From Thiorhodovibrio litoralis (GTDB lineage: Bacteria > Pseudomonadota > Gammaproteobacteria > Chromatiales > Chromatiaceae), in the NCBI RefSeq assembly GCF_033954455.1, contig NZ_CP121473.1, positions 3,024,501 to 3,088,500 of the forward strand: a stretch of 64,000 nucleotides of DNA. Reading direction: 5' to 3'. This document shows positions 16,950 through 28,712 of the stretch, in pieces (position 1 is the first letter of the stretch; every line of letters starts with the position of its first letter). The position numbers were made by a program, and so were the translations under genes. The notes below the pieces were generated by a model, which was given only the letters and a program-made list of their open reading frames with translations, searched no databases and was not told where the DNA came from.

Positions 16950-19900
16950 TGCTCGCGCGCCTGATTCAATTCGCGCTCACCCAGCGACTGTTAATGCTGC
17001 TCGCAGTGGCGTTGCTGATCGGCCTCGGCTGGCAAGCGATGCGCCAGACGCCCATCGACGCATTCCCGGATGTCTCCACCACCCAGGTCAAGATCATTGT
17101 CAAGGCGCCCGGTATGACGCCGGAGGAAGTCGAGTCGCGCATCACCAGCCGCATCGAGGTGGAGATGCTCGGCATTCCCCACCAGACCATGCTGCGCGCC
17201 ATCGCCAAATATGGCCTCACCGACATCACCATCGACTTCGCCGAGGGCACTGACATCTACTGGGCGCGCCAGCAGGTGGCCGAGCGGCTGAACGCGGTCT
17301 GGAGCGAGCTGCCGGACGGCGCCGAGGGCGGCATCGCCCCCATGACGACGCCGCTTGGGGAGATGTTCATGTTCAGCATCGACGGCGGCGGCCTGAGCCT
17401 GGCCGAGCGGCGCGACCTGCTCGACTGGACCATACGCCCGGCGTTGCGCTCGGTCTCCGGGGTGGCCGATGTGAATGCACTCGGCGGCTTCGTGACCACC
17501 TTTGAGGTGGTGCCGGACAATGGCCGCATGGCCAGCCGTGGCGTGTCCATGGATGACCTGAAGACGGCCGTGACCGCCAACAATCGCAACGACGGCGCCG
17601 GCCGGCTCGACGAGGGCGAGGAATCCCTGCTGGTGCGCAGTCAGGGCGCCATCCAGACGCTGGAGGATCTCGGCGGCATCGTTGTCGGCGGCGACAACGC
17701 CCAACCGGTTCGGGTCGCCGATGTGGCCGATGTGCGCTTGTCCGCCCTGACCCGCTATGGCGCGGTCACCAAGGACGGCAGTGGCGAGACGGTCGAGGGC
17801 CTGGTGCTCGGCCTGCGCGGCGCCAATGCCCGCACCCTGGTTCAGGGCGTGCGCGCCAAGCTCGATGAGCTCAAGCCCGGGCTGCCCGATGGGGTCGAGA
17901 TCCAGGTCTTCTACGACCGCGGCGTGCTGGTCGACAAAGCCGTGCATACCGTGTCAAAGGCGCTGATTGAGGCCATCGTGCTGGTGCTGGTGCTCTTGGT
18001 GCTCTTCCTCGGCGATCTGCGCGCAGCCCTGACGGTGGCGCTAATCCTACCGCTAGCGGCGCTCGCGACCTTCATCCTCATGAACCGGTTCGGGCTCTCG
18101 GCCAACCTCATGTCGCTCGGCGGTCTGGCCATCGCCATCGGCATGCTGGTCGATGCCGCCGTGGTGGTGGTCGAGAATATCGTCACCCAACTAGGCGCAC
18201 ACGGGGGGCGCAGCGGCGCTCGCTTGCCAAGATTGCACCTGATCTACCGCGCCACCCGCGAGGTAGCGCTACCGGTCGCCTCCGGCATCCTGATCATCAT
18301 CATCGTCTTTCTGCCTCTACTCACGCTCGAGGGACTGGAGGGCAAGCTGTTCGTCCCAGTGGCCCTGACCATCGTCTTCGCACTCAGTAGCTCCCTGCTG
18401 CTGTCGCTGACGGTGATCCCGGTGCTTGCCTCCTTCCTGCTTGGACCGGCCGAGCATGGCGAACCATGGCTGGTGCGCCAGCTGCTGGCGCTCTACACCC
18501 CAGCGCTGGAGTGGAGCCTGCGCCACCCGCTGCCGGTCATCGGCGTGGCCGTTGCAATGCTGCTCGGGGCCGGGGTGGTTTATACCCAGGTCGGTAAGTC
18601 CTTCATGCCGAGCATGGACGAGGGCGATCTGATCGTGCAGCTGGAAAAACTGCCGTCAATCAACCTCAAGGAATCCCTCGCCATCGACCAGCGCGTACAG
18701 CGGGCGATTCTCGCCGAGGTGCCGGAGGTGAAAGCGATCATCGCCCGCACCGGCTCCGACGAACTTGGCCTGGACCCGATGGGCTTGAACCAGACCGACA
18801 GCTTTCTGGTGCTCGCGCCGATGGACGCATGGCGCATGGACACCAAGGAAGAACTGATGGACGCCATCCGTGCGGTGATGGACCACTTCCCCGGCGTCGA
18901 CTACGCTTTCACCCAGCCGATTGAAATGCGCGTTTCGGAGATGCTGACCGGTGTGCGCGGCGATCTCGCCGTCAAGCTCTTCGGTCCCAATCAGGATCAG
19001 CTCAACAAGACCGCTGAGGAGATCGTCGCAGTGCTGCAAGGCCTCGAAGGCGCCGAGGATGTCTACACGCCACGCAACGAAGGCGCCCAGTATCTGAATC
19101 TCCAGATCGACCGTCTCGAGGCTGGTCGTTTAGGACTCGACATCGACGCCTTGGCCGCGCAGCTGCGCGCCGAGATTGAGGGCCTGCCGATCAGTATCGT
19201 CTATGGTGAGGGCAAGCGCCGGCCGCTGGTGATTCGCGGCCCAGAGTCGCTGCGCGAGAACCCCAGCCGGCTAGAGGCGCTGCGCATCGCCCTGCCCGAT
19301 GGCCGCGCGGTATCCCTGACCAACCTGGTCACCATGGAGCGCGGCGAAGGCCCGGTCGCACTCACCCGCGAGCGCGGCAATCGCCTGGCGGTGGCCATCG
19401 CCAATGTCTCCGGGCGCGACCTGGTCGGCTTTGTCGAGGAAGCCCGGGCGAAGGTTGCCGAGCAGGTCGATTTGCCGACCGGCTACTGGCTCGAGTGGGG
19501 CGGCGAGTTCGAGAATCAACAGCGCGCCGCGGCACGCCTAGCCTTGGTGGTGCCCATCGCCATCGGGCTGATTTTTCTGATCCTGTTTTCCACCTTCCGC
19601 TCGGTGACGCAGGCGGTGCTCATCCTGGCCATGGTGCCCTTCGCCATGATCGGTGGCATCGTCGGACTCTTCGTCACCGGCGAGTACATGTCGGTGCCGG
19701 CCTCAGTCGGATTTATCGCCCTGCTCGGCATCGCCGTGCTCAATGGCGTGGTGATGCTGACCTATTTCAATCAACTGCGCACCCTTGGTCGCCCCATTGC
19801 TGAAGTGGTGGTCGAAGGCGCCAAACGCCGTCTGCGCCCGGTGCTGATGACCGCCACCACCGCCACCTTCGGCCTGGTACCGCTGCTGTTCGCCAGCGGC

Positions 19901-20017
19901 CCGGGCTCGGAGATCCAGCGCCCGCTAGCCATAGTGGTGATCGGCGGGCTGGTGTCCGCCACCACGCTGACGCTGATCGTACTGCCGATGCTGTATCGGC
20001 GCTTTGGGGCGCGCTGA
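16949..20017 (+). CDS. Heavy-metal efflux RND transporter (CzcA/CusA-like)
   Basis: A full-length 1022-residue inner-membrane RND pump with the HME-family layout: TM1 near residue 10, a large periplasmic loop (about 35-335), a TM2-6 block including the proton-relay helix GGLAIAIGMLVDAAVVVVEN (around residues 390-409), a second periplasmic loop (about 555-850), and TM7-12. It exports metal ions using the proton gradient together with the two preceding proteins. The exact metal (Cu/Ag versus Co/Zn/Cd) cannot be fixed by eye. Its 3' end from about 19610 and the downstream DUF3240 gene are repeated exactly 8340 bp away, on the far side of the dnd-like island. Confidence 0.94.
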   Translation: MLARLIQFALTQRLLMLLAVALLIGLGWQAMRQTPIDAFPDVSTTQVKIIVKAPGMTPEEVESRITSRIEVEMLGIPHQTMLRAIAKYGLTDITIDFAEGTDIYWARQQVAERLNAVWSELPDGAEGGIAPMTTPLGEMFMFSIDGGGLSLAERRDLLDWTIRPALRSVSGVADVNALGGFVTTFEVVPDNGRMASRGVSMDDLKTAVTANNRNDGAGRLDEGEESLLVRSQGAIQTLEDLGGIVVGGDNAQPVRVADVADVRLSALTRYGAVTKDGSGETVEGLVLGLRGANARTLVQGVRAKLDELKPGLPDGVEIQVFYDRGVLVDKAVHTVSKALIEAIVLVLVLLVLFLGDLRAALTVALILPLAALATFILMNRFGLSANLMSLGGLAIAIGMLVDAAVVVVENIVTQLGAHGGRSGARLPRLHLIYRATREVALPVASGILIIIIVFLPLLTLEGLEGKLFVPVALTIVFALSSSLLLSLTVIPVLASFLLGPAEHGEPWLVRQLLALYTPALEWSLRHPLPVIGVAVAMLLGAGVVYTQVGKSFMPSMDEGDLIVQLEKLPSINLKESLAIDQRVQRAILAEVPEVKAIIARTGSDELGLDPMGLNQTDSFLVLAPMDAWRMDTKEELMDAIRAVMDHFPGVDYAFTQPIEMRVSEMLTGVRGDLAVKLFGPNQDQLNKTAEEIVAVLQGLEGAEDVYTPRNEGAQYLNLQIDRLEAGRLGLDIDALAAQLRAEIEGLPISIVYGEGKRRPLVIRGPESLRENPSRLEALRIALPDGRAVSLTNLVTMERGEGPVALTRERGNRLAVAIANVSGRDLVGFVEEARAKVAEQVDLPTGYWLEWGGEFENQQRAAARLALVVPIAIGLIFLILFSTFRSVTQAVLILAMVPFAMIGGIVGLFVTGEYMSVPASVGFIALLGIAVLNGVVMLTYFNQLRTLGRPIAEVVVEGAKRRLRPVLMTATTATFGLVPLLFASGPGSEIQRPLAIVVIGGLVSATTLTLIVLPMLYRRFGAR

Positions 20018-20350
20018 GCGTTGCAAAACCAGAAACCGACCTACCCCTAATCCACAGGCACAACCCGCGATGTCCGATTGCCTCCTATCCCTGATCGTCG
20101 CCCCCGAAGCCGAAGACGCCGTCGCCGAATGGCTGCTCGATGACGAGACCATCCCCGGCTTCTCCAGCAGCCCCATCGCCGGGCATGGCTCTTCGGAATC
20201 CTCCATGACCCTTGCCGAACAGGTCGCCGGGCGCCGCCAGCGGGTGATGTTCTTCACCCATCTGGAGCAATCCGTCGCCGAGCGGGTGCTCGAGCGCCTG
20301 CGCGAGGAACTCCCGGGCGCCGACATCCATTACTGGATGGTGCCAGTGCT
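19610..20350 (+). repeat. Left copy of long direct repeat flanking the dnd-like island
   Basis: Aligned line by line, this segment is identical to 27950-28690 (offset 8340). It covers the last part of czcA, the intergenic bases and nearly all of the DUF3240 gene. Outside the 741-bp core the copies still align but carry substitutions: at 19609, 19528 and 19519 on the left side and 20351, 20360 and 20364 on the right. Those six are synonymous in the genes. Confidence 0.95.
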
Positions 20351-20372
20351 AGTGGCGGGGCATTTGGGGTGA
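20070..20372 (+). CDS. DUF3240 family protein (first copy)
   Basis: A 100-residue protein (MSDCLLSLIVAPEAEDAVAE...) of the DUF3240 type, a small ferredoxin-like/PII-like fold frequently encoded at the end of CzcCBA operons. The HYWMVPVLVAGHLG ending is the usual family C-terminus. Its role is presumed to be a regulator or metal-binding accessory of the efflux pump; this is not established from the sequence. It lies 52 bases after czcA and is duplicated at 28410-28712 with an identical protein sequence. Confidence 0.85.
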   Translation: MSDCLLSLIVAPEAEDAVAEWLLDDETIPGFSSSPIAGHGSSESSMTLAEQVAGRRQRVMFFTHLEQSVAERVLERLREELPGADIHYWMVPVLVAGHLG

Positions 20373-20432: not shown

Positions 20433-21323
20433 TTAGGTGGAGCGCGCAACAAGCTTGAACTCATCAATACGGTCGCGAATTTCCGCAGGTACCTTACCCA
20501 TTTCACGGATGCGTCGAGCAAGAAAGCCAATGTGTTCGTCGAAGCGCACCGGGCAGGTATGAGAGAGATACTTCAGCGCAGCCTTTCCGTCGAGCATTCT
20601 GGTCAGACGTTCCCACCGTTCTCGGGGTGATACGCTCGTTCGATCAAAGCGATCGATCTTTACACGCTCCTGATCCAATGCTGGTCCTGGATTGGGTATC
20701 CTCAGCTTGGTTAGGTGCCCAACGAGGTCGGCCTTGAGCTGGCTTCCGCGCTTCAACGGGGTACAGCCAAATCCGGGCTTCGGGGAGGGCTGGTTCGCCG
20801 TCGTGGCAGCAACTGTTGCCGCCGATTTATCCTTGAGTTCGTCGGCAAAGGCGAGACAGGCGTTGACCATGGCGTCGCCGGTTTGGCTTGATTTCAGTTC
20901 ATGGTCGTTCGCCACTTCCGCCATCGCATCCGGATCAAGCAGATAGTTTTCCAACTCCCAGCGCAACAGCACCCTGATGCTGTCTCCATGAGGCCGCGCC
21001 GCCAGAAACGCCTCGTCAGCTTCCTGCCACCAGAGCACCCAGTTGTGCATGCCGAGCAGCAGGTCTCGATCGACCAGGCCGAATGCCGCTACCCCATCGG
21101 CCCGCGCTCCCGCGACCAAAGCAATGACGGCCTCGCAGCCTCCGCCGCCGGTGTCAGGCTCGTGACGGTCGGCTGGCTCGAACAGTACATCGGCACCTTC
21201 ATCAAAGAACCAGCGTTTGGCGATGATCTCGTAATCGTCTTCCGATTCAAGAAAGACCACCGCGCCGCCGCGCTGCTTCCACAATAGGCGCTCCGGCGCC
21301 TTGACCTTCTTGAATGCACTCAT
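20433..21323 (-). CDS. DUF4435 (TOPRIM-like) protein, PARIS AriB-like effector candidate
   Basis: A 296-residue protein with the TOPRIM pattern of DUF4435: VVFLESEDDYEIIAKRW (residues 22-38, Glu26 as the first acidic residue), FGLVDRDLL (about 81-89, the DxD pair), and WELENYLLDPDAM (about 122-134). DUF4435 proteins are the toxic nuclease (AriB) of the PARIS anti-phage system, held by an ABC-type ATPase (AriA) until a phage trigger appears. The gene immediately upstream encodes just such an ATPase and overlaps by four bases (ATGA), the AriA-AriB order and coupling. Unlike stand-alone PARIS it is the last gene of a dndCD-containing operon, so it may be the restriction arm of a phosphorothioation system. 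Family call is by motif, not search. Confidence 0.72.
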   Translation of the reverse strand: MSAFKKVKAPERLLWKQRGGAVVFLESEDDYEIIAKRWFFDEGADVLFEPADRHEPDTGGGGCEAVIALVAGARADGVAAFGLVDRDLLLGMHNWVLWWQEADEAFLAARPHGDSIRVLLRWELENYLLDPDAMAEVANDHELKSSQTGDAMVNACLAFADELKDKSAATVAATTANQPSPKPGFGCTPLKRGSQLKADLVGHLTKLRIPNPGPALDQERVKIDRFDRTSVSPRERWERLTRMLDGKAALKYLSHTCPVRFDEHIGFLARRIREMGKVPAEIRDRIDEFKLVARST

Positions 21324-22483
21324 CTTCCTATCTCTTCTGAACGCAGGCCAGGCTCGATGATCCAGCCACCCTTGATGAGATCCGGCTCGGCAATGTCGAC
21401 CGGAAAGGCTTCCAGAATTTCCACCGAATGGGTTGCGGCGATGACCGTCGTACCCCGGTGCCGACGAACCTGCGCCTTCATCAGATTGAGCGCCTTATGC
21501 TGCCAGCGGACATGCAGATGGACATCGAGTTCGTCCACAAGCACCCAAGTGTTGCGAGTGCTATGAGCGCCAATGCGCAAGAATAGCTGGGCTAGGTTTT
21601 TCTCCCCGCTGGAAAGCCGATCCAATCGATGGGTCTGTTCCGAGCTGTGGACGATAGCCTCGGGCGGTACCCGCCGGATCTTGGTGTCGAGAAACCTATC
21701 CGGGGACTTGTCGAAGACGGTCTCGTTGACTGTCTTCACCGCGGCTTCAAAGCTGCCATCGCTTAACCAGGCGAGCCAGACGAGCAGGTTATCCAGAGAC
21801 GCGGTCCAGTGCGTGCCATGCGGGGCAAACTCATGTGCCGTGCGATAGGCCCAATGCTCCGGCTGGATGATTGCCCGTTCGGTGGCATCTTGGAGACGTG
21901 GGATGTCGCGATAGGCCGAGAAATACAGAGCGGTCGGCAGGCTGAGCGTGGCGTTGGCGAAGGCACCGGGCGTCAGGCCGCTGGAATCGTCGAGGGTGCG
22001 CCGGAGATCCTGCACCAGGTCGTCCTGACGATCGATCTCTACCAGTCGACCTGGAGCCCGCTGGCGGAAGCCGGTCCGATGCCATGCTTGCGCTCCGTAT
22101 TGCTTCAGTAACTCGTCGTCCCATACCTTCAAAAAGGTCTCTTCTCCGAGATTTCCGGCGACCATGGACAGCACGATCCTGTGGTCTCGCCCCTGCCAAA
22201 AGAGCCGAGTCAGCACGTCGAGTTGGACTCGTCCCTTCCCGTCGTCCAGGTCCTCGTGACCAAAGTGCTGGGGACTCAGCGTTCCAAGCTGGCGCATCAG
22301 CAAGGCGAAGCACTCCAGCACCGTTGTCTTGCCCTGCCCGTTCTCGGACATCAGCAGAAAGACATTGCATGGGCGGTCTTGGTCGTCGGTGAAATCGATC
22401 TCGTAGGGCGAACCCTGAAATGGACCGACGCGGTCCAGCGTCAGCCAAAGGGGTTGGAACTCGTAGACGGTCATGTCGCTCAT
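21320..22483 (-). CDS. ABC/AAA_15-type ATPase, PARIS AriA-like
   Basis: A 387-residue SMC/RecF-like ATPase without a long coiled coil. Walker A is SENGQGKT (residues 46-53), the signature motif LSSGEKNL (290-297), Walker B WVLVDELDVH (313-322) and the switch His in AATHS (349-353). Size, motif order and the DUF4435 partner resemble AriA of PARIS, a scaffold ATPase that senses phage proteins and releases the nuclease. Its start overlaps the stop of the FtsK-like gene by four bases and its stop overlaps the DUF4435 start by four, so all are translated together. It could also be an OLD/Septu-like ATPase; the partner gene is the main reason for preferring AriA. Confidence 0.75.
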   Translation of the reverse strand: MSDMTVYEFQPLWLTLDRVGPFQGSPYEIDFTDDQDRPCNVFLLMSENGQGKTTVLECFALLMRQLGTLSPQHFGHEDLDDGKGRVQLDVLTRLFWQGRDHRIVLSMVAGNLGEETFLKVWDDELLKQYGAQAWHRTGFRQRAPGRLVEIDRQDDLVQDLRRTLDDSSGLTPGAFANATLSLPTALYFSAYRDIPRLQDATERAIIQPEHWAYRTAHEFAPHGTHWTASLDNLLVWLAWLSDGSFEAAVKTVNETVFDKSPDRFLDTKIRRVPPEAIVHSSEQTHRLDRLSSGEKNLAQLFLRIGAHSTRNTWVLVDELDVHLHVRWQHKALNLMKAQVRRHRGTTVIAATHSVEILEAFPVDIAEPDLIKGGWIIEPGLRSEEIGR

Positions 22484-24015
22484 CGCTGTTCACCGCGGAC
22501 GTGCCTTAGGCACTGTTTGATGTCATCGCCGGTGACAAGCACCCCATGGGCACGGCGCAGCGGCACCCCAGCGCGCGGCCGCAACAGCATGTCGCCGGCT
22601 CCAAGGAGCTTTTCCGCACCGACCTCATCGAGGATGATCTTGGATTCGGCCGCAGTGCGCACGGACAGCGCAATTCGTGCCGGGACGTTGCTGCGGAGCA
22701 GACCGGTGAAGGTCTCCGCGTCTGGGCGTTGTGTCGCGAGCAGCAGATGGATGCCGACCGCACGGGCCTTCTGTGCCAAGCGCACCAGTGGCGTTTCGGC
22801 CTCGCGCGACTGGAACAGCAAGTCCGCCAACTCCTCGACCACGACGACGATATAGGGTAGGTCCATTCGGCCTTGAGCCCGGCCTTGGGCCAGGTTCGAG
22901 ACACCTTGCTCACGCAGCAGACCGGTGCGCCGCTCCATCTCGCCGACCAAATCATCAAGGGTGTCCAATGCTTCCCCCATATCCTCCAGCACATGCCCGT
23001 CGCGCAGGTGCGGCAGCCCGGTGTACTGGCCGAGTTCGACGCGCTTTGGATCGATCATGACCAAATGGAGGTCTTTGGGTTCCAGACGCCACAGCAGCGA
23101 CAACAGCAGCGCATGCAAGCACACACTCTTGCCGCTGCCGGTGGTCCCGCCCAGCAGCAGATGCGGCGCCTCGGCCAAATCGAACGCCACCGGGGCACCC
23201 AGCACGTCCACCCCCGGCCAGACCGTGAGTAGCGGTAGATCCTCTGCCGTGCGCGCCCAGTCACGCAGGCGCGCACCGGGTACGCTTTGCCAGGTCTCGC
23301 GCGGTCTGGGCACATCCAGAGCCAGCACCCGAGCCTCGCGTTCGCGCTCTTCGTCCTCTTGCAGCAAGATGCCCTGCCGCGTCGACAGGCCCAGGTAAAG
23401 CCCGAGTTTCTCGAGTCCACGCTTGACCCGGTCGTAGTGATTGACGTCGTCCAGATAGACACGGTAGCGGCTGATGCGCGGCCCTTCGTCGACACCACGA
23501 ATCTGGGCGATGACGCCGATCTCGCGCAGTCCGGCAAGTATCTCCTGTGCTCGATCCACCCGTGCTGGAGCCGGTGACGCTGCCACGAACAGGTCTTGAT
23601 ACAAATAACTGGCGAAATCGTGCCCCGGTCGCCAGCTGGTTCTAATCTCGCGGAGACCGCGGCGCACATGACGCTGTAGATAGCGCTTGTAGCGTGGTTC
23701 GGCCTCCTCGTCCTGGAACATATCCTCGCCGTGGTAGATACTCAGCAGCGCGCGGATGGCGAGGTCGTAGTCCTGTCGGCCACGCTCGTCCGCAGCGAGA
23801 CCGCTGCCGGTCACACGCGTCAGCCAGTATTCGCCACCGCTGGGGCCGAGGGTGCTGCCATCCAAATCCTCCGGCGGCGGTGTCGGTATTTGCAGAGAGC
23901 GTGCCAGCGCGATACGGAGCACACGCAACTTCGGGGCATTTGGCGTGCCGAGCCCATGGGACAGCACATCATTGATGGTCTGCTCGTCGGCCGCGTCGGT
24001 ATATATGTCTGGCAT
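22480..24015 (-). CDS. FtsK/SpoIIIE-type DNA translocase with possible DndE-like N-terminus
   Basis: A 511-residue soluble motor. Residues 155-240 (IGVIAQIRGVDEGPRISRYRVYL ... VLALDVPRPRE) match the FtsK beta domain, and 250-510 the alpha domain: Walker A GTTGSGKS (290-297), DPKRVEL (322-328), Walker B VVVVEELADLL, and LLLATQRPDAETFTGLLRSN. It has no membrane segments and no gamma (KOPS-reading) domain. Residues 1-60 (INDVLSHGLGTPNAPKLRVLRIALARSL) resemble DndE, a small DNA-nick-binding protein of phosphorothioation systems. That would explain why no separate dndE is present, but the similarity is weak. It starts three bases after dndD. Role is inferred as DNA loading or translocation for modification or restriction. 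Confidence 0.82.
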   Translation of the reverse strand: MPDIYTDAADEQTINDVLSHGLGTPNAPKLRVLRIALARSLQIPTPPPEDLDGSTLGPSGGEYWLTRVTGSGLAADERGRQDYDLAIRALLSIYHGEDMFQDEEAEPRYKRYLQRHVRRGLREIRTSWRPGHDFASYLYQDLFVAASPAPARVDRAQEILAGLREIGVIAQIRGVDEGPRISRYRVYLDDVNHYDRVKRGLEKLGLYLGLSTRQGILLQEDEEREREARVLALDVPRPRETWQSVPGARLRDWARTAEDLPLLTVWPGVDVLGAPVAFDLAEAPHLLLGGTTGSGKSVCLHALLLSLLWRLEPKDLHLVMIDPKRVELGQYTGLPHLRDGHVLEDMGEALDTLDDLVGEMERRTGLLREQGVSNLAQGRAQGRMDLPYIVVVVEELADLLFQSREAETPLVRLAQKARAVGIHLLLATQRPDAETFTGLLRSNVPARIALSVRTAAESKIILDEVGAEKLLGAGDMLLRPRAGVPLRRAHGVLVTGDDIKQCLRHVRGEQR

Positions 24016-24018
24016 CGC

Positions 24019-26058
24019 TTATACCCCGGCAGCCAGTTCGGCGACGTCAACAGCCACAGGAACAGTGTGCTCCCCATCGGGGTTGGTCAGCCGAAAAGCA
24101 GCGTACACATGCTCCGCTACGAGTCCAAGCTTGCGGGCATCCAATTCCGAATCGGTCGGTAACACGATGACCTGGTCGGCGGCATTCGGATAGTACTGCG
24201 TGAGAATCGCCTTCTGATTCCCGGCATCAATACGGGCCAAGGGGGTATCGATGATCACGGGAACCTGCTTGCCGGATGCCTCGCTCAGCGCCCAGAGGAG
24301 GGCTGTGGCCATCAGCTGCTTCATGCCAGCGGAAAGGGCGCCCATTGCGATTGGGTGGCCATCGCGATCAAGGTAATGCAGGCCGAATTCGTCATCGACT
24401 TCGATCTTATCGATCAGATGGTGCGATGTCATCAAGAGCCTGAAGTGGCGGTTGATGGCGTTCTCCAGTGCTTCCCGCTGCTCCTTCTTGCGCTGATCCT
24501 TCAGCTTGCTGAACAGACTCCCGAGTCGCCGAGCCAGGTAAATCTTGTCTTTCGCAATTCCGCCTGCTTGGACAACGCTTTGTATCTCCGTGATCATTTT
24601 CTTGGTCTCATCGAGCTTGCGCTGCTTTTGGCCGAATTCGTTCTCCAGCGCGCCGATGCGCTGTTGCTTGTCGGTCAATGCCCGCTCCAACTGATCGCGT
24701 TCTTCGACGTAGCGCTCAAATTGCTTACGTTCCTCGTCCGATAGTGAGCCGACATTCAGCAGGTCCGTCTCCAGTTTCCGCAGCTCGGCCGTCTGCTGTT
24801 GCAGCCTCCGTAAGGCTTCGGCGCGCAACGTGCGCAGACCTTCCGCTTCCGCGTAGGGGGCGAGCTGATCGCGTGCACGCGCACCGGCTTGCGGGTCCGG
24901 TGCGAAGTTTGGGTCCATCACCGAACCAGCGTCGGTCATGTCCTTTTCCAGCAAGCGGACGAGTTTGTATTGGTAGAAGGCGCGCTGACCTTCGCGGATA
25001 TCGGGATCGGGCCGGTCTGGGCCGTCAAATAGACGCTCGGGCAGCGTCCGCGTCAGCGTCTCCAGCACTCGGCTGCGGGCACCGGCGTCGCTGCGCAGCA
25101 CCTGATCCAGGCGGTCGATCGCTCGGCGCACCAGGCTGGGATTAGCCAAGAGCACGACATCGCGGGGCAGCTCCGCAGAGAGCCGCTCGCGCCCATCGGC
25201 AAACTCGGCCTGAATCCGTCTGAGGGCTTGCTTCAGCTCGTTCTCGTCATGACGATGCACGTAGGCGCTGACACCCTCGATACGCCGACGGACGCGACGC
25301 AGCTCCTCCTGATCGTCCTCGACCTCTTGCTCCAGTATGGCCTGGGTGTCTTCCAGCGCTCTCAGCTCCTCCGAGAGGGCTCGTGCGCTGCCCTCCAGAC
25401 GTTGCAGCTCGGCCTTGGCCTCGGGCTTCAACTCGTTGCGTTGCCAGCCATTGACGGATTGCTTCAGGGCCTCCCGCAGGGCGTCGATCGCACCGATACC
25501 GAGGATGCGCTCCATCTCGCGTTGTTGCGTGTCGCGGTTGGCCTCGGCCAGGGCCTGGATCTGCTCACCGTCGAAGAAGAAAAAGTCGACATAGTCCGGA
25601 GGCAATCGGCGGTCCAGAAACTCCTGGGCCGCCTCGTCGTCGAAGCGGGCCTCGCCGGCCTGCACCGCCAACTGCTCTTGCCAGGTGTCGCCTTCGATGG
25701 TCCAACTGCGCTCCGCCCTGACCATTTGCCCGTTCTCCGTCCAGCGCAGTTCCACAGCGCAGCGCGTCTCTCCGTCTATGCGGGCGCGTCGGTTCATGAT
25801 TCCCCACCAGTCGTCACCTGCCCCAAGTACATACTGCTGAACGGTGGGCATACGCTTGCGCTGAACTGCTCGCCGCAGGGGTTCGTTGCATGCGCCGGTG
25901 AACAAGAGCTTCAGCGCGTTCAGCAGGCTGGTCTTGCCGAATCCGTTTTGGCCCATTATCAGGCAGATGTTACGCCCCGGTCCCGGTTGGCCGAGCTCGA
26001 AACGCTGCGGACCGCAGTAGGAGAACAGGTTGGTGAGCTGAATCCGCTCGATGATCAT
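24019..26058 (-). CDS. dndD: DndD-like SMC/Rad50-type ATPase of DNA phosphorothioation
   Basis: A 679-residue ATPase: Walker A GQNGFGKT (36-43) in a RecF/Rad50-like N-terminus, the DndD hallmark VDFFFFDGEQIQALAE, a long Glu/Arg/Leu coiled-coil region (about 200-540), then the signature LSAGMKQLMATALLWAL and the Walker B/D-loop PVIIDTPLARIDAGN. DndD works with DndC and DndE to introduce the non-bridging sulfur into the DNA backbone and may nick or remodel DNA. Its start overlaps dndC by four bases (ATGA). Length agrees with DndD. No dndB or dndA lies beside it. Confidence 0.9.
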   Translation of the reverse strand: MIIERIQLTNLFSYCGPQRFELGQPGPGRNICLIMGQNGFGKTSLLNALKLLFTGACNEPLRRAVQRKRMPTVQQYVLGAGDDWWGIMNRRARIDGETRCAVELRWTENGQMVRAERSWTIEGDTWQEQLAVQAGEARFDDEAAQEFLDRRLPPDYVDFFFFDGEQIQALAEANRDTQQREMERILGIGAIDALREALKQSVNGWQRNELKPEAKAELQRLEGSARALSEELRALEDTQAILEQEVEDDQEELRRVRRRIEGVSAYVHRHDENELKQALRRIQAEFADGRERLSAELPRDVVLLANPSLVRRAIDRLDQVLRSDAGARSRVLETLTRTLPERLFDGPDRPDPDIREGQRAFYQYKLVRLLEKDMTDAGSVMDPNFAPDPQAGARARDQLAPYAEAEGLRTLRAEALRRLQQQTAELRKLETDLLNVGSLSDEERKQFERYVEERDQLERALTDKQQRIGALENEFGQKQRKLDETKKMITEIQSVVQAGGIAKDKIYLARRLGSLFSKLKDQRKKEQREALENAINRHFRLLMTSHHLIDKIEVDDEFGLHYLDRDGHPIAMGALSAGMKQLMATALLWALSEASGKQVPVIIDTPLARIDAGNQKAILTQYYPNAADQVIVLPTDSELDARKLGLVAEHVYAAFRLTNPDGEHTVPVAVDVAELAAGV

Positions 26059-27386
26059 GCAGTCGGGTCCGCGCGCTCGGCCTGCCGGACGGCGTTGCCG
26101 ATGACCTTTTCCACATCATCGAGCAACTGCCGGCGGCTGGCGGGAGTATCCAGGGTCGGGTAGCGCTCGCTGACCAGCCGATACAGCTCAGTAGCCCAGA
26201 TGGATTGCACCCCGAACACGGGTGCCAATTGTTCGATCAGCGCTAGGTCGGTTGCATGGTCTTCCGGTGTCGTTGGCAAAGCGGCAACCTCCCGTCCAGC
26301 GGCGCGCGCGAGACCCAGCGCGCTCTCGTTGGCATCAAAGTCTTTTGTCCACTGCTGTTGGATGTAGGCCAGCTCCGCGTCGCTGATTAACGGCCGCCCG
26401 ACGCGCCTTTCCAATTCCAGCAGGCGTTGCAGTATGGTCTTACGAGTCTCCGAGCGAAACGGGCCCGGTCCGACGCGGTTATCGCGGCGAAGGCCGTCGC
26501 GTTGTTCGTGGTCATCGCGGATCAACTTCAGCCAGTTGCGAAACTCGTTCAGCGGTTCCATCCAGGTCTCGCCCGAGTCGATGAAGCCGCGCATGGAACG
26601 GTCTTCCTTTACCACGGTGCAGGTCCAGCAGCCGAAACGGCTGCCGCCGCAAGAAGGCGTACCGAGGTCCAACACGACCGGGCATTCGCCGCCACTCGCC
26701 TGGCGATACAGGTTGAGCATGAAGTCGTGGCTGCCGCCCCAGGGAGGAGGATTATGCGAAAACAGATACTCCCAAACCGCATCAGTACTCCAGTCCGCAA
26801 TGGGTGTCATCACCAGCGCGTTGGGTATCTCGTGATGTGGGTTTAGGCCGCGCGCATTGGATTGTCGCGCCTCCATGCGTTGCGCCCGCCCGCTGCTCTC
26901 GTCCAGTCTTGTGCCCAGTAGCAACACGACGCTGCCGTGATCGCTTACGACATCGTCGATCACTGCGCGCGATGGCTTGATTTTCATTTTTGTCGTGCAC
27001 CAACGGAACCAGCGCGTCGGTGCCGGATAGCCCTTGCCGATCAGATTGCCCCAGAAACTCTGTTCGGGAAACGGCTGCACTCGGTGCACGGTAACAGATA
27101 TTCCGTGGGCGCTAGCGTGGGCGTCAAGCAGCGTTAGCCGTTCGGCGAGGTAATCCTCGACGTTTGGTGCTTCAACGCGGGTATCGGCGGCGACGACGTG
27201 GATTGGCTTGTTGGCCCCACGACCGAGTTCAAGCAATAATTCGTAGACCAGTTGAAGCACCAGCGTCGAGTCTTTACCGCCCGAGTAAGCGACAACCCAA
27301 GGACGCTGATCCGCGAGATAATGGTCACGAAGATTCCTCATCGTAACTTGTGCGCAGCTTTCCGTTGAAACAGAGCTTTCCTTCAT
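26055..27386 (-). CDS. dndC: DndC-like PAPS-reductase-family sulfurtransferase of DNA phosphorothioation
   Basis: DndC activates the DNA backbone with ATP and carries the sulfur. The PP-loop SGGKDST is at residues 35-41 after LADQRPWVVAY. Cys130 (WFRWCTTKMKIKP) and the cluster Cys235, Cys246, Cys253 and Cys256 (TPSCGGSRFGCWTC) match the Fe-S and catalytic Cys region of DndC. The conserved GTRLDESSGRA and ADWSTDAVWEYL blocks are also there. It is the first gene of the leftward operon dndC-dndD-ftsK-ATPase-DUF4435. The start is uncertain: ATG 27386 gives the usual short N-terminus, and ATGs at 27404, 27461 and 27542 extend it with sequence that does not look conserved. Confidence 0.9.
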   Translation of the reverse strand: MKESSVSTESCAQVTMRNLRDHYLADQRPWVVAYSGGKDSTLVLQLVYELLLELGRGANKPIHVVAADTRVEAPNVEDYLAERLTLLDAHASAHGISVTVHRVQPFPEQSFWGNLIGKGYPAPTRWFRWCTTKMKIKPSRAVIDDVVSDHGSVVLLLGTRLDESSGRAQRMEARQSNARGLNPHHEIPNALVMTPIADWSTDAVWEYLFSHNPPPWGGSHDFMLNLYRQASGGECPVVLDLGTPSCGGSRFGCWTCTVVKEDRSMRGFIDSGETWMEPLNEFRNWLKLIRDDHEQRDGLRRDNRVGPGPFRSETRKTILQRLLELERRVGRPLISDAELAYIQQQWTKDFDANESALGLARAAGREVAALPTTPEDHATDLALIEQLAPVFGVQSIWATELYRLVSERYPTLDTPASRRQLLDDVEKVIGNAVRQAERADPTA

Positions 27387-27748: not shown

Positions 27749-28357
27749 TTGGGGCAAGAATTAGTCGGCTTTGTTGAGGAAGCGCCCACGCAAGTGGCTG
27801 CCGAGGTCGAGCTGCGGACCGGCTACTGGCTCGAGTGGGGCGGCGAGTTCGAGAATCAGCAGCGCGCTGCGGCACGCCTAGCCTTGGTGGTGCCCATCGC
27901 CATCGGGCTGATTTTTCTGATCCTGTTTTCCACCTTCCGCTCGGTGACCCAGGCGGTGCTCATCCTGGCCATGGTGCCCTTCGCCATGATCGGTGGCATC
28001 GTCGGACTCTTCGTCACCGGCGAGTACATGTCGGTGCCGGCCTCAGTCGGATTTATCGCCCTGCTCGGCATCGCCGTGCTCAATGGCGTGGTGATGCTGA
28101 CCTATTTCAATCAACTGCGCACCCTTGGTCGCCCCATTGCTGAAGTGGTGGTCGAAGGCGCCAAACGCCGTCTGCGCCCGGTGCTGATGACCGCCACCAC
28201 CGCCACCTTCGGCCTGGTACCGCTGCTGTTCGCCAGCGGCCCGGGCTCGGAGATCCAGCGCCCGCTAGCCATAGTGGTGATCGGCGGGCTGGTGTCCGCC
28301 ACCACGCTGACGCTGATCGTACTGCCGATGCTGTATCGGCGCTTTGGGGCGCGCTGA
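27749..28357 (+). pseudogene. 5'-truncated czcA copy (C-terminal ~200 codons) at the right end of the island
   Basis: The frame encodes only the last 200 residues of the RND pump (from LVGFVEEA to the normal C-terminus), covering TM8-TM12. It cannot be functional alone. The first 30 codons differ clearly from the left copy (EEAPTQVAAEVELRTGYW versus EEARAKVAEQVDLPTGYW), then the DNA becomes identical from 27950 onward. The divergent start shows it is not a simple copy of the left gene: it began as a different czcA allele and the middle was then homogenised or exchanged. Confidence 0.9.
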
Positions 28358-28690
28358 GCGTTGCAAAACCAGAAACCGACCTACCCCTAATCCACAGGCA
28401 CAACCCGCGATGTCCGATTGCCTCCTATCCCTGATCGTCGCCCCCGAAGCCGAAGACGCCGTCGCCGAATGGCTGCTCGATGACGAGACCATCCCCGGCT
28501 TCTCCAGCAGCCCCATCGCCGGGCATGGCTCTTCGGAATCCTCCATGACCCTTGCCGAACAGGTCGCCGGGCGCCGCCAGCGGGTGATGTTCTTCACCCA
28601 TCTGGAGCAATCCGTCGCCGAGCGGGTGCTCGAGCGCCTGCGCGAGGAACTCCCGGGCGCCGACATCCATTACTGGATGGTGCCAGTGCT
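27950..28690 (+). repeat. Right copy of long direct repeat flanking the dnd-like island
   Basis: This is identical over 741 bases to 19610-20350, including the non-coding bases between the two genes. The nearest differences are at 27949 on the left side and 28691, 28700 and 28704 on the right side, after which the flanks diverge completely. Confidence 0.95.
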
Positions 28691-28712
28691 GGTGGCGGGT
28701 CATCTGGGGTGA
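28410..28712 (+). CDS. DUF3240 family protein (second copy)
   Basis: The 100-residue product is identical to that of 20070-20372; the DNA differs only by three synonymous changes in the last eight codons. It follows the truncated czcA copy with the same 52-base gap. Because the truncated gene has lost its operon promoter, expression would need a new promoter from the island side. Function as for the first copy is unproven. Confidence 0.85.
   Translation: MSDCLLSLIVAPEAEDAVAEWLLDDETIPGFSSSPIAGHGSSESSMTLAEQVAGRRQRVMFFTHLEQSVAERVLERLREELPGADIHYWMVPVLVAGHLG

Follow-up and report, generated by a model that had tools for sequence, protein, structure and literature searches.

A dnd operon ending in an AriAB-like ATPase-TOPRIM pair in Thiorhodovibrio litoralis, a candidate two-layer anti-phage system

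We analyzed a 64,000-nucleotide stretch of Thiorhodovibrio litoralis DNA (contig NZ_CP121473.1, positions 3,024,501 to 3,088,500; hereafter the window), which holds a leftward operon that joins genes for DNA phosphorothioation (dnd) to a putative ATPase-TOPRIM nuclease pair (Table 1). An earlier note on this DNA, made from the sequence alone, had described five leftward genes joined by three four-base overlaps and one three-base gap, and the coordinates of the open reading frames bear this out. Overlaps of four bases each are found between dndC and dndD (26055-26058), dndE-ftsK and the ATPase gene (22480-22483), and the ATPase and TOPRIM genes (21320-21323), and three bases (24016-24018) separate dndD from dndE-ftsK. 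A scan of the operon for promoters and terminators gave a signal near chance level.

Table 1. Genes of the operon and the flanking repeat, with positions in the window (aa, amino acids)
Feature	Position	Strand	Length	Remarks
dndC	26055..27386	-	443 aa	PP-loop sulfurtransferase; start codon inferred, open frame up to 27542
dndD	24019..26058	-	679 aa	SMC/Rad50-like ABC ATPase
dndE-ftsK fusion	22480..24015	-	511 aa	DndE domain ~residues 32-126; FtsK/SpoIIIE motor (Pfam 258-431)
OLD/PtuA-type ABC ATPase	21320..22483	-	387 aa	putative sensor/scaffold
AriB-like TOPRIM (DUF4435-type) nuclease	20433..21323	-	296 aa	putative effector
Direct repeat, left copy	19412..20372	+		RND efflux pump gene 3' end and small downstream gene; names by eye
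Direct repeat, right copy	27752..28712	+		truncated pump gene and small gene; names by eye

The first two gene products, labelled DndC-like and DndD-like in the earlier note, both exceed the NCBI curated equivalog thresholds. DndC, which contains an SGGKDS motif, scored 360.1 bits against TIGR03183 (cut-off 290.4), and DndD scored 276.6 bits against TIGR03185 (cut-off 245.85). The top PADLOC models for DndD were PbeC (2e-109) and, in second place, DndD (3e-83). The third protein had been labelled an FtsK motor. This holds for the motor part (Pfam FtsK_SpoIIIE, 2.5e-47), but not for a separate FtsK protein, since the N-terminus is a DndE domain recognizable through homologues. On its own, the DndE domain of the window stays under the Pfam DndE cut-off of 25 bits (15.0 bits, E=0.03). 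The N-terminus of an 80% identical homologue (L037, genome G025) matches DndE with 23.4 bits (E=7.7e-5). A stand-alone homologue of 146 aa on a Thiomargarita contig (L055) shares 50% identity with the window protein over 147 aa and lies above the cut-off with 25.2 bits. Judged by these homologues, the third gene is a DndE-FtsK fusion, and with DndC, DndD and the fused DndE domain present, the modification core DndC-DndD-DndE is complete. No cysteine desulfurase gene was found within the operon. In the window's genome (G000), there was no DndB match and no IscS above the family cut-off (best E value 1.7e-9; SufS was not searched for). A related locus in Mesorhizobium does carry a cysteine desulfurase gene. 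In the Thiomargarita locus, the stand-alone DndE is encoded without FtsK after the TOPRIM gene (L055, 4643-5083), and the FtsK motor seems dispensable there.

The fourth protein matches Pfam AAA_21 (3.5e-13, 50.7 bits), as do all 24 ATPase sequences compared (24/24 at E <= 0.001). Its structural model has a predicted local distance difference test score (pLDDT) of 85.3, and the best 50 of its 1082 Foldseek matches are PtuA complex chains of retron/Septu systems (ranks 1-44) and Rad50-type chains (ranks 45-50). The earlier label of an ABC-type ATPase is therefore retained and can be narrowed to the OLD/PtuA type. PADLOC called the protein AriA; we discarded this call, as the underlying model resembles the generic Pfam AAA_21 model, with equal profile length and the same match.

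The AlphaFold2 model of the TOPRIM protein, based on an alignment of 21 sequences, has a pLDDT of 91.9. Among 350,542 PDB chains, its top two Foldseek matches were AriB chains, 8ux9_A (probability 1.00, E value 2.3e-3) and 8v46_D (probability 0.99), and the third-best match had a probability of 0.06. The AriB match spans nearly the whole model. Residues E26, D30 and D85 are unchanged in 21/21 aligned sequences. DUF4435 was matched at E <= 1 by 10 of the 21 sequences, and two of ten homologues scanned singly reached at least 27 bits (L056, 33.5; L055, 28.7). A tblastn search of plasmids with the TOPRIM protein gave no match; a diverged homologue on a Mesorhizobium plasmid was recognized by gene position despite this. 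Going by the predicted folds, the pair joins an effector of AriB type to an ATPase of OLD/PtuA type; we call it AriAB-like and not PARIS proper.

The earlier note had left it to a genome search whether the five-gene order recurs elsewhere. It does, and with copies in other genomes the arrangement cannot be put down to chance. In a pattern-based contig scan with the ATPase alignment, using one genome per species, 414 stretches fitted the pattern and 87 of them encoded a relative; the best 80 of these 87 were considered. We defined the family as 25 loci (L045-L069, E <= 9e-38), a number that is a lower bound, and left out as generic 55 further loci with mostly partial ATPase matches (L070-L124, E 3e-7 or worse). 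Five loci from another search, which showed FtsK-type matches only (L040-L044), were likewise set aside. All five genes are open and in order in ten loci (L046, L049, L051, L056, L060, L062, L064-L067). Eight more retain the order, although a gene, mostly dndC, is broken or runs off the contig, which brings the total to 18 of 25 across several classes. Among these eight, the contig of L050 is too short for the whole operon; at contig ends, transposase-like frames (named by eye) adjoin the missing start of dndD in L047, where dndC lies off the contig, and of dndC in L048. L053, L058 and L063 have frame breaks in dndC, and several genes are broken in L069. The dndC of L059 stops ~97 codons early; since rhizobial DndC is equally short, this shortened DndC may work. 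Large dnd losses mark five loci (L045, L052, L054, L057, L061). In the rearranged locus L055, the genes run dndD, ATPase, TOPRIM and an FtsK-less DndE, and a short piece of dndC survives close to the edge of the contig; L068 lies on a contig too short to judge.

The hosts include Magnetococcales, Desulfobacterota, and Gamma- and Alphaproteobacteria, and among them are Chromatiaceae, Accumulibacter, Marinobacter, Thiomargarita and Rhizobiales; Thiocystis violacea DSM 207 and Thiorhodococcus minor are examples of cultured hosts. A further complete copy of the operon is present in genome G025 (L037), and the rhizobial loci carry an extra cysteine desulfurase gene and a second dndD-dndE set. The TOPRIM gene follows the ATPase gene in 23 of the 25 loci; the other two (L050, L068) end before that point. 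The pairwise distances of the five proteins correlate with r of 0.947-0.989 over 13 sequence sets (the window, L037, and 11 loci within length limits for all five proteins, with the DndC of L059 shortened by its stop), a level reached in 0/999 permutations. The TOPRIM protein diverges most, with a mean identity of 0.33 compared to 0.41-0.59 for the other four proteins. A scan of IMG/VR with the ATPase profile returned four partial matches only (E 8e-6 or worse), thus revealing no copy carried by a phage.

Eleven of the 25 loci combine damaged or missing dnd genes with open frames for both the ATPase and the TOPRIM protein (L045, L047, L048, L052, L053, L054, L057, L058, L059, L061, L063; in L058, the TOPRIM frame is open until the contig end). 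The five large losses are separate changes on the ATPase tree. The L061 locus of Allochromatium palmeri has kept open ATPase and TOPRIM genes but, of the dnd genes next to them, no more than a decayed, stop-containing end of ftsK, and the whole genome has no DndC or DndD family match. On its 9-kb contig, L057 shows nothing that matches a dnd gene, and its genome likewise lacks matches to the DndC and DndD families; the locus is 55-59% identical to its nearest relative on the tree, L055. In the metagenome-assembled genome (MAG) with L045, dndC lacks ~317 residues and no second DndC match was found; the other four genes are open. Just scraps of dnd genes are left in L052, and an HNH gene occupies the former place of dndD and dndE-ftsK in L054. 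Between the pairs of L061 and L060, the ratio of nonsynonymous to synonymous substitution rates (dN/dS) was 0.11-0.13, a value that covers the whole divergence and was obtained with dS near saturation. We also observed that dndC is the gene most often broken in otherwise conserved operon copies (L045, L048, L053, L058, L059, L063), as though modification were the first function to go.

These natural losses suggest that the nuclease switch can be kept without sulfur marks. The earlier note had proposed that the nuclease might be triggered when sulfur marks are lost or absent or when the modification complex is blocked. The open pairs in dnd-damaged loci, the independence of the five large losses and the two genomes without a DndC or DndD match (L057, L061) speak against this trigger, and the nuclease is probably not set free when sulfur marks disappear.

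We propose, with our judgement evenly balanced, that the operon encodes a two-layer anti-phage system in which phosphorothioation is combined with a guard of AriAB-like type that responds to a phage factor. While gene content and order, co-divergence, the TOPRIM residues, the AriB-like predicted fold and the persistence of the pair without Dnd come from the sequence, we infer phosphorothioation itself, sensing by the ATPase, the trigger, the substrate and the abortive outcome as follows. In the first layer, DndC, DndD and DndE-FtsK would phosphorothioate DNA, and the FtsK motor would carry DndE along the DNA. In the second layer, the ABC ATPase would keep the TOPRIM nuclease inactive until it senses a factor from the phage, for which an anti-restriction protein or a DNA mimic is the likeliest candidate. 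The ATPase would then free the nuclease, which might cut host tRNA, like AriB, or DNA, like OLD nucleases, and thereby abort the infection. The release of an ATPase-held TOPRIM nuclease by a phage factor is the logic of PARIS (PMC9122126, PMC12409363), which senses an anti-restriction protein and for which two genes suffice (PMC9122126). Phages are also known to encode anti-Dnd proteins, for example JSS1_004 (PMC12345140). More specifically, a detachable AriB-type switch on a PtuA-like ATPase may guard DndC-DndD-DndE/FtsK and fire upon inhibition by a phage or upon an encounter of the DndE-FtsK motor with phage DNA, with an effector that does not read phosphorothioates; this version we hold tentatively and with some doubt.

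The pair could instead serve as a restriction arm, with the DndE-FtsK complex detecting unmodified DNA and passing it to the ATPase and TOPRIM proteins for cutting, while phosphorothioates shield self DNA as in DndFGH and DndI. The location of the pair immediately behind dndE-ftsK, at junctions that overlap slightly or leave small gaps, the co-divergence, the suitability of FtsK motors for translocating restriction and the ability of OLD-type TOPRIM enzymes to cut DNA (PMC12409363) would fit such a role. However, DndI is toxic in cells without phosphorothioates (PMC11662687), yet the pair is open in 11 dnd-damaged loci, and the truncation in L045, which is one MAG, affects dndC alone. Survivable dnd loss thus argues against a DndI-like arm as it does against the earlier trigger, and we consider such an arm unlikely. 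Both the linkage and the survivable loss would be accounted for if phosphorothioates or the assembled Dnd complex activated the pair, in the way that activation of the SspE nuclease requires phosphorothioates (PMC11662687), and dnd loss silenced it harmlessly. A silenced pair would be expected to decay, but both of its frames are open in the dnd-lesion loci, and the divergence of L057 from L055, together with the lack of a dnd match on its contig, suggests an old loss. The persistence of the pair therefore argues, less strongly, against an SspE-like arm, which we regard as improbable too. The occurrence of the pair alone in L057 and L061, and the finding that BREX and other defence loci have recruited PARIS-type modules (PMC12839542), would agree with an independent PARIS-like cassette that shares the operon without functional coupling. 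Against this stand the constant position and order in 18 of 25 loci from several classes, the agreement of the distances, and the different genes that fill the same slot in other DndE-FtsK operons, so that mere cohabitation appears very unlikely.

Several observations weigh against the proposed guard, or against its likeness to PARIS. AriA is absent among the best 50 of the 1082 Foldseek matches of the ATPase model, which by its predicted fold is closer to PtuA than to AriA, and PtuA, UvrA and AriA score alike against the ATPase sequence profile. The AriA identity suggested in the earlier note is thus not supported, the PADLOC AriA model being no guide for the reason given above. For the TOPRIM protein, the template modelling scores (TM-scores) against AriB are moderate (0.42-0.44; 0.44 for 8ux9_A), which makes it a distant AriB relative on the basis of the model. 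A sequence profile of the 21 TOPRIM homologues found neither AriB nor any TOPRIM protein in the PDB. Of the earlier label, a DUF4435 TOPRIM protein of AriB type, the AriB-like predicted fold stood; the DUF4435 part is a weak match, with 15.1 bits for the window protein, under the cut-off of 27. With regard to the dnd losses, the scan was conditioned on the ATPase, not on the TOPRIM protein, and most of the 11 lesion loci are MAGs or drafts, in which frame breaks are possibly errors; L058, L059 and L061 come from isolates. L069 is a counter-example, in which the ATPase is broken along with the dnd genes. The loss in L061 looks recent, and the orphan pairs may be silent, perhaps having lost an upstream promoter. 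Finally, a guard that does not need Dnd leaves the near-constant linkage in need of another reason, for example sensing through the DndE-FtsK complex.

Compared with known systems, the pair shares with PARIS its separate ABC ATPase and TOPRIM genes, its ability to stand alone and a TOPRIM glutamate, E26, numbered as in E. coli AriB, a likeness by number and not by residue alignment. It differs from PARIS in that the ATPase has 387 aa compared to 464 aa in AriA and is closer to PtuA by fold, the window TOPRIM protein is under the DUF4435 threshold, and the pair is usually the tail of a dnd operon. The published detection rule for PARIS combines AAA_15 >=32 or AAA_21 >=27 bits with DUF4435 >=27 bits (PMC9122126); the window pair reaches the ATPase part (AAA_21, 50.7) and misses the DUF4435 part (15.1). 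PtuA of retron and Septu systems provides the nearest solved fold of the ATPase among the best 50 of 1082 matches. Its partner PtuB, however, is an HNH nuclease (PMC12409363), whereas the partner here is a TOPRIM protein, and unlike in PtuA retrons, there is no reverse transcriptase among the five genes.

The fusion of DndE with a HerA/FtsK domain beside a DndD-related ATPase is already known from Dnd clade 3 (PMC10853773). The nucleases named there are HKD, HNH, REase/NERD, URI, HEPN and PIN, and within the accessible text, TOPRIM is mentioned in connection with primases and OLD likewise concerns other things. DndABCDE-FGH, IscS-DndBCDE-DndI, DndCDEA-PbeABCD and SspABCD-E also join a phosphorothioation core to an anti-phage effector, but the effector here differs. 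Among the papers listed in a literature search outside supplementary files, there was no report of a phosphorothioation operon with an AriAB-like pair and, in line with the earlier note, no characterized system with the same five genes. The accessible parts of PMC12839542, PMC9122126 and PMC12707154 report no Dnd link for AriA or AriB. Within the literature searched, the combination of the DndE-FtsK fusion with the ATPase-TOPRIM pair is therefore unreported.

The earlier note had read the AriAB-like pair as replacing the usual restriction arm. The conserved order of a Dnd core and an AriAB-like pair upholds the first half of this reading. For the second half, TIGR03237, which we take to represent a DndH-type protein, had no match in 6/6 genomes including that of the window, but likewise none in 14 control genomes, a weak negative without a working control. 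Among the Dnd-type effectors considered, DndFGH and DndI attack unmodified DNA and SspE is activated by sulfur marks, whereas a guard logic is suggested here. If true, this would be a third logic of sulfur-based immunity, beside nucleases that modification protects against and nucleases that it activates. The architecture also shows effectors of AriB type with a different ATPase as partner and in a different host system. The natural knock-outs in several lineages make it directly testable whether the nuclease needs sulfur marks.

A direct repeat of ~940 bp (19412-20351 and 27752-28691) flanks the operon on both sides; its ~740 central bases are identical and its edges have diverged, which points to gene conversion or recombination when the operon arrived. 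Another genome of the same genus (G001) has one near-full-length copy of the repeat, accompanied nearby by a shorter match that has diverged; DndE-FtsK has no full-length match there. This suggests that recombination or duplication at that site brought the operon in.

We also noted other genes in the slot after dndE-ftsK. In genome G013 (L039, 3761-5589), it holds a gene for a DndB family protein and one for a 176-aa protein without a Pfam match, in which we presume a GIY...YIG-like motif. In Rhizobium phaseoli (L032, 9503-9706) and Aureimonas (L034, 9422-9658), a TusA-family sulfur-carrier gene follows dndE-ftsK and there is no ATPase-TOPRIM pair, which hints at a different sulfur supply for phosphorothioation in these two.

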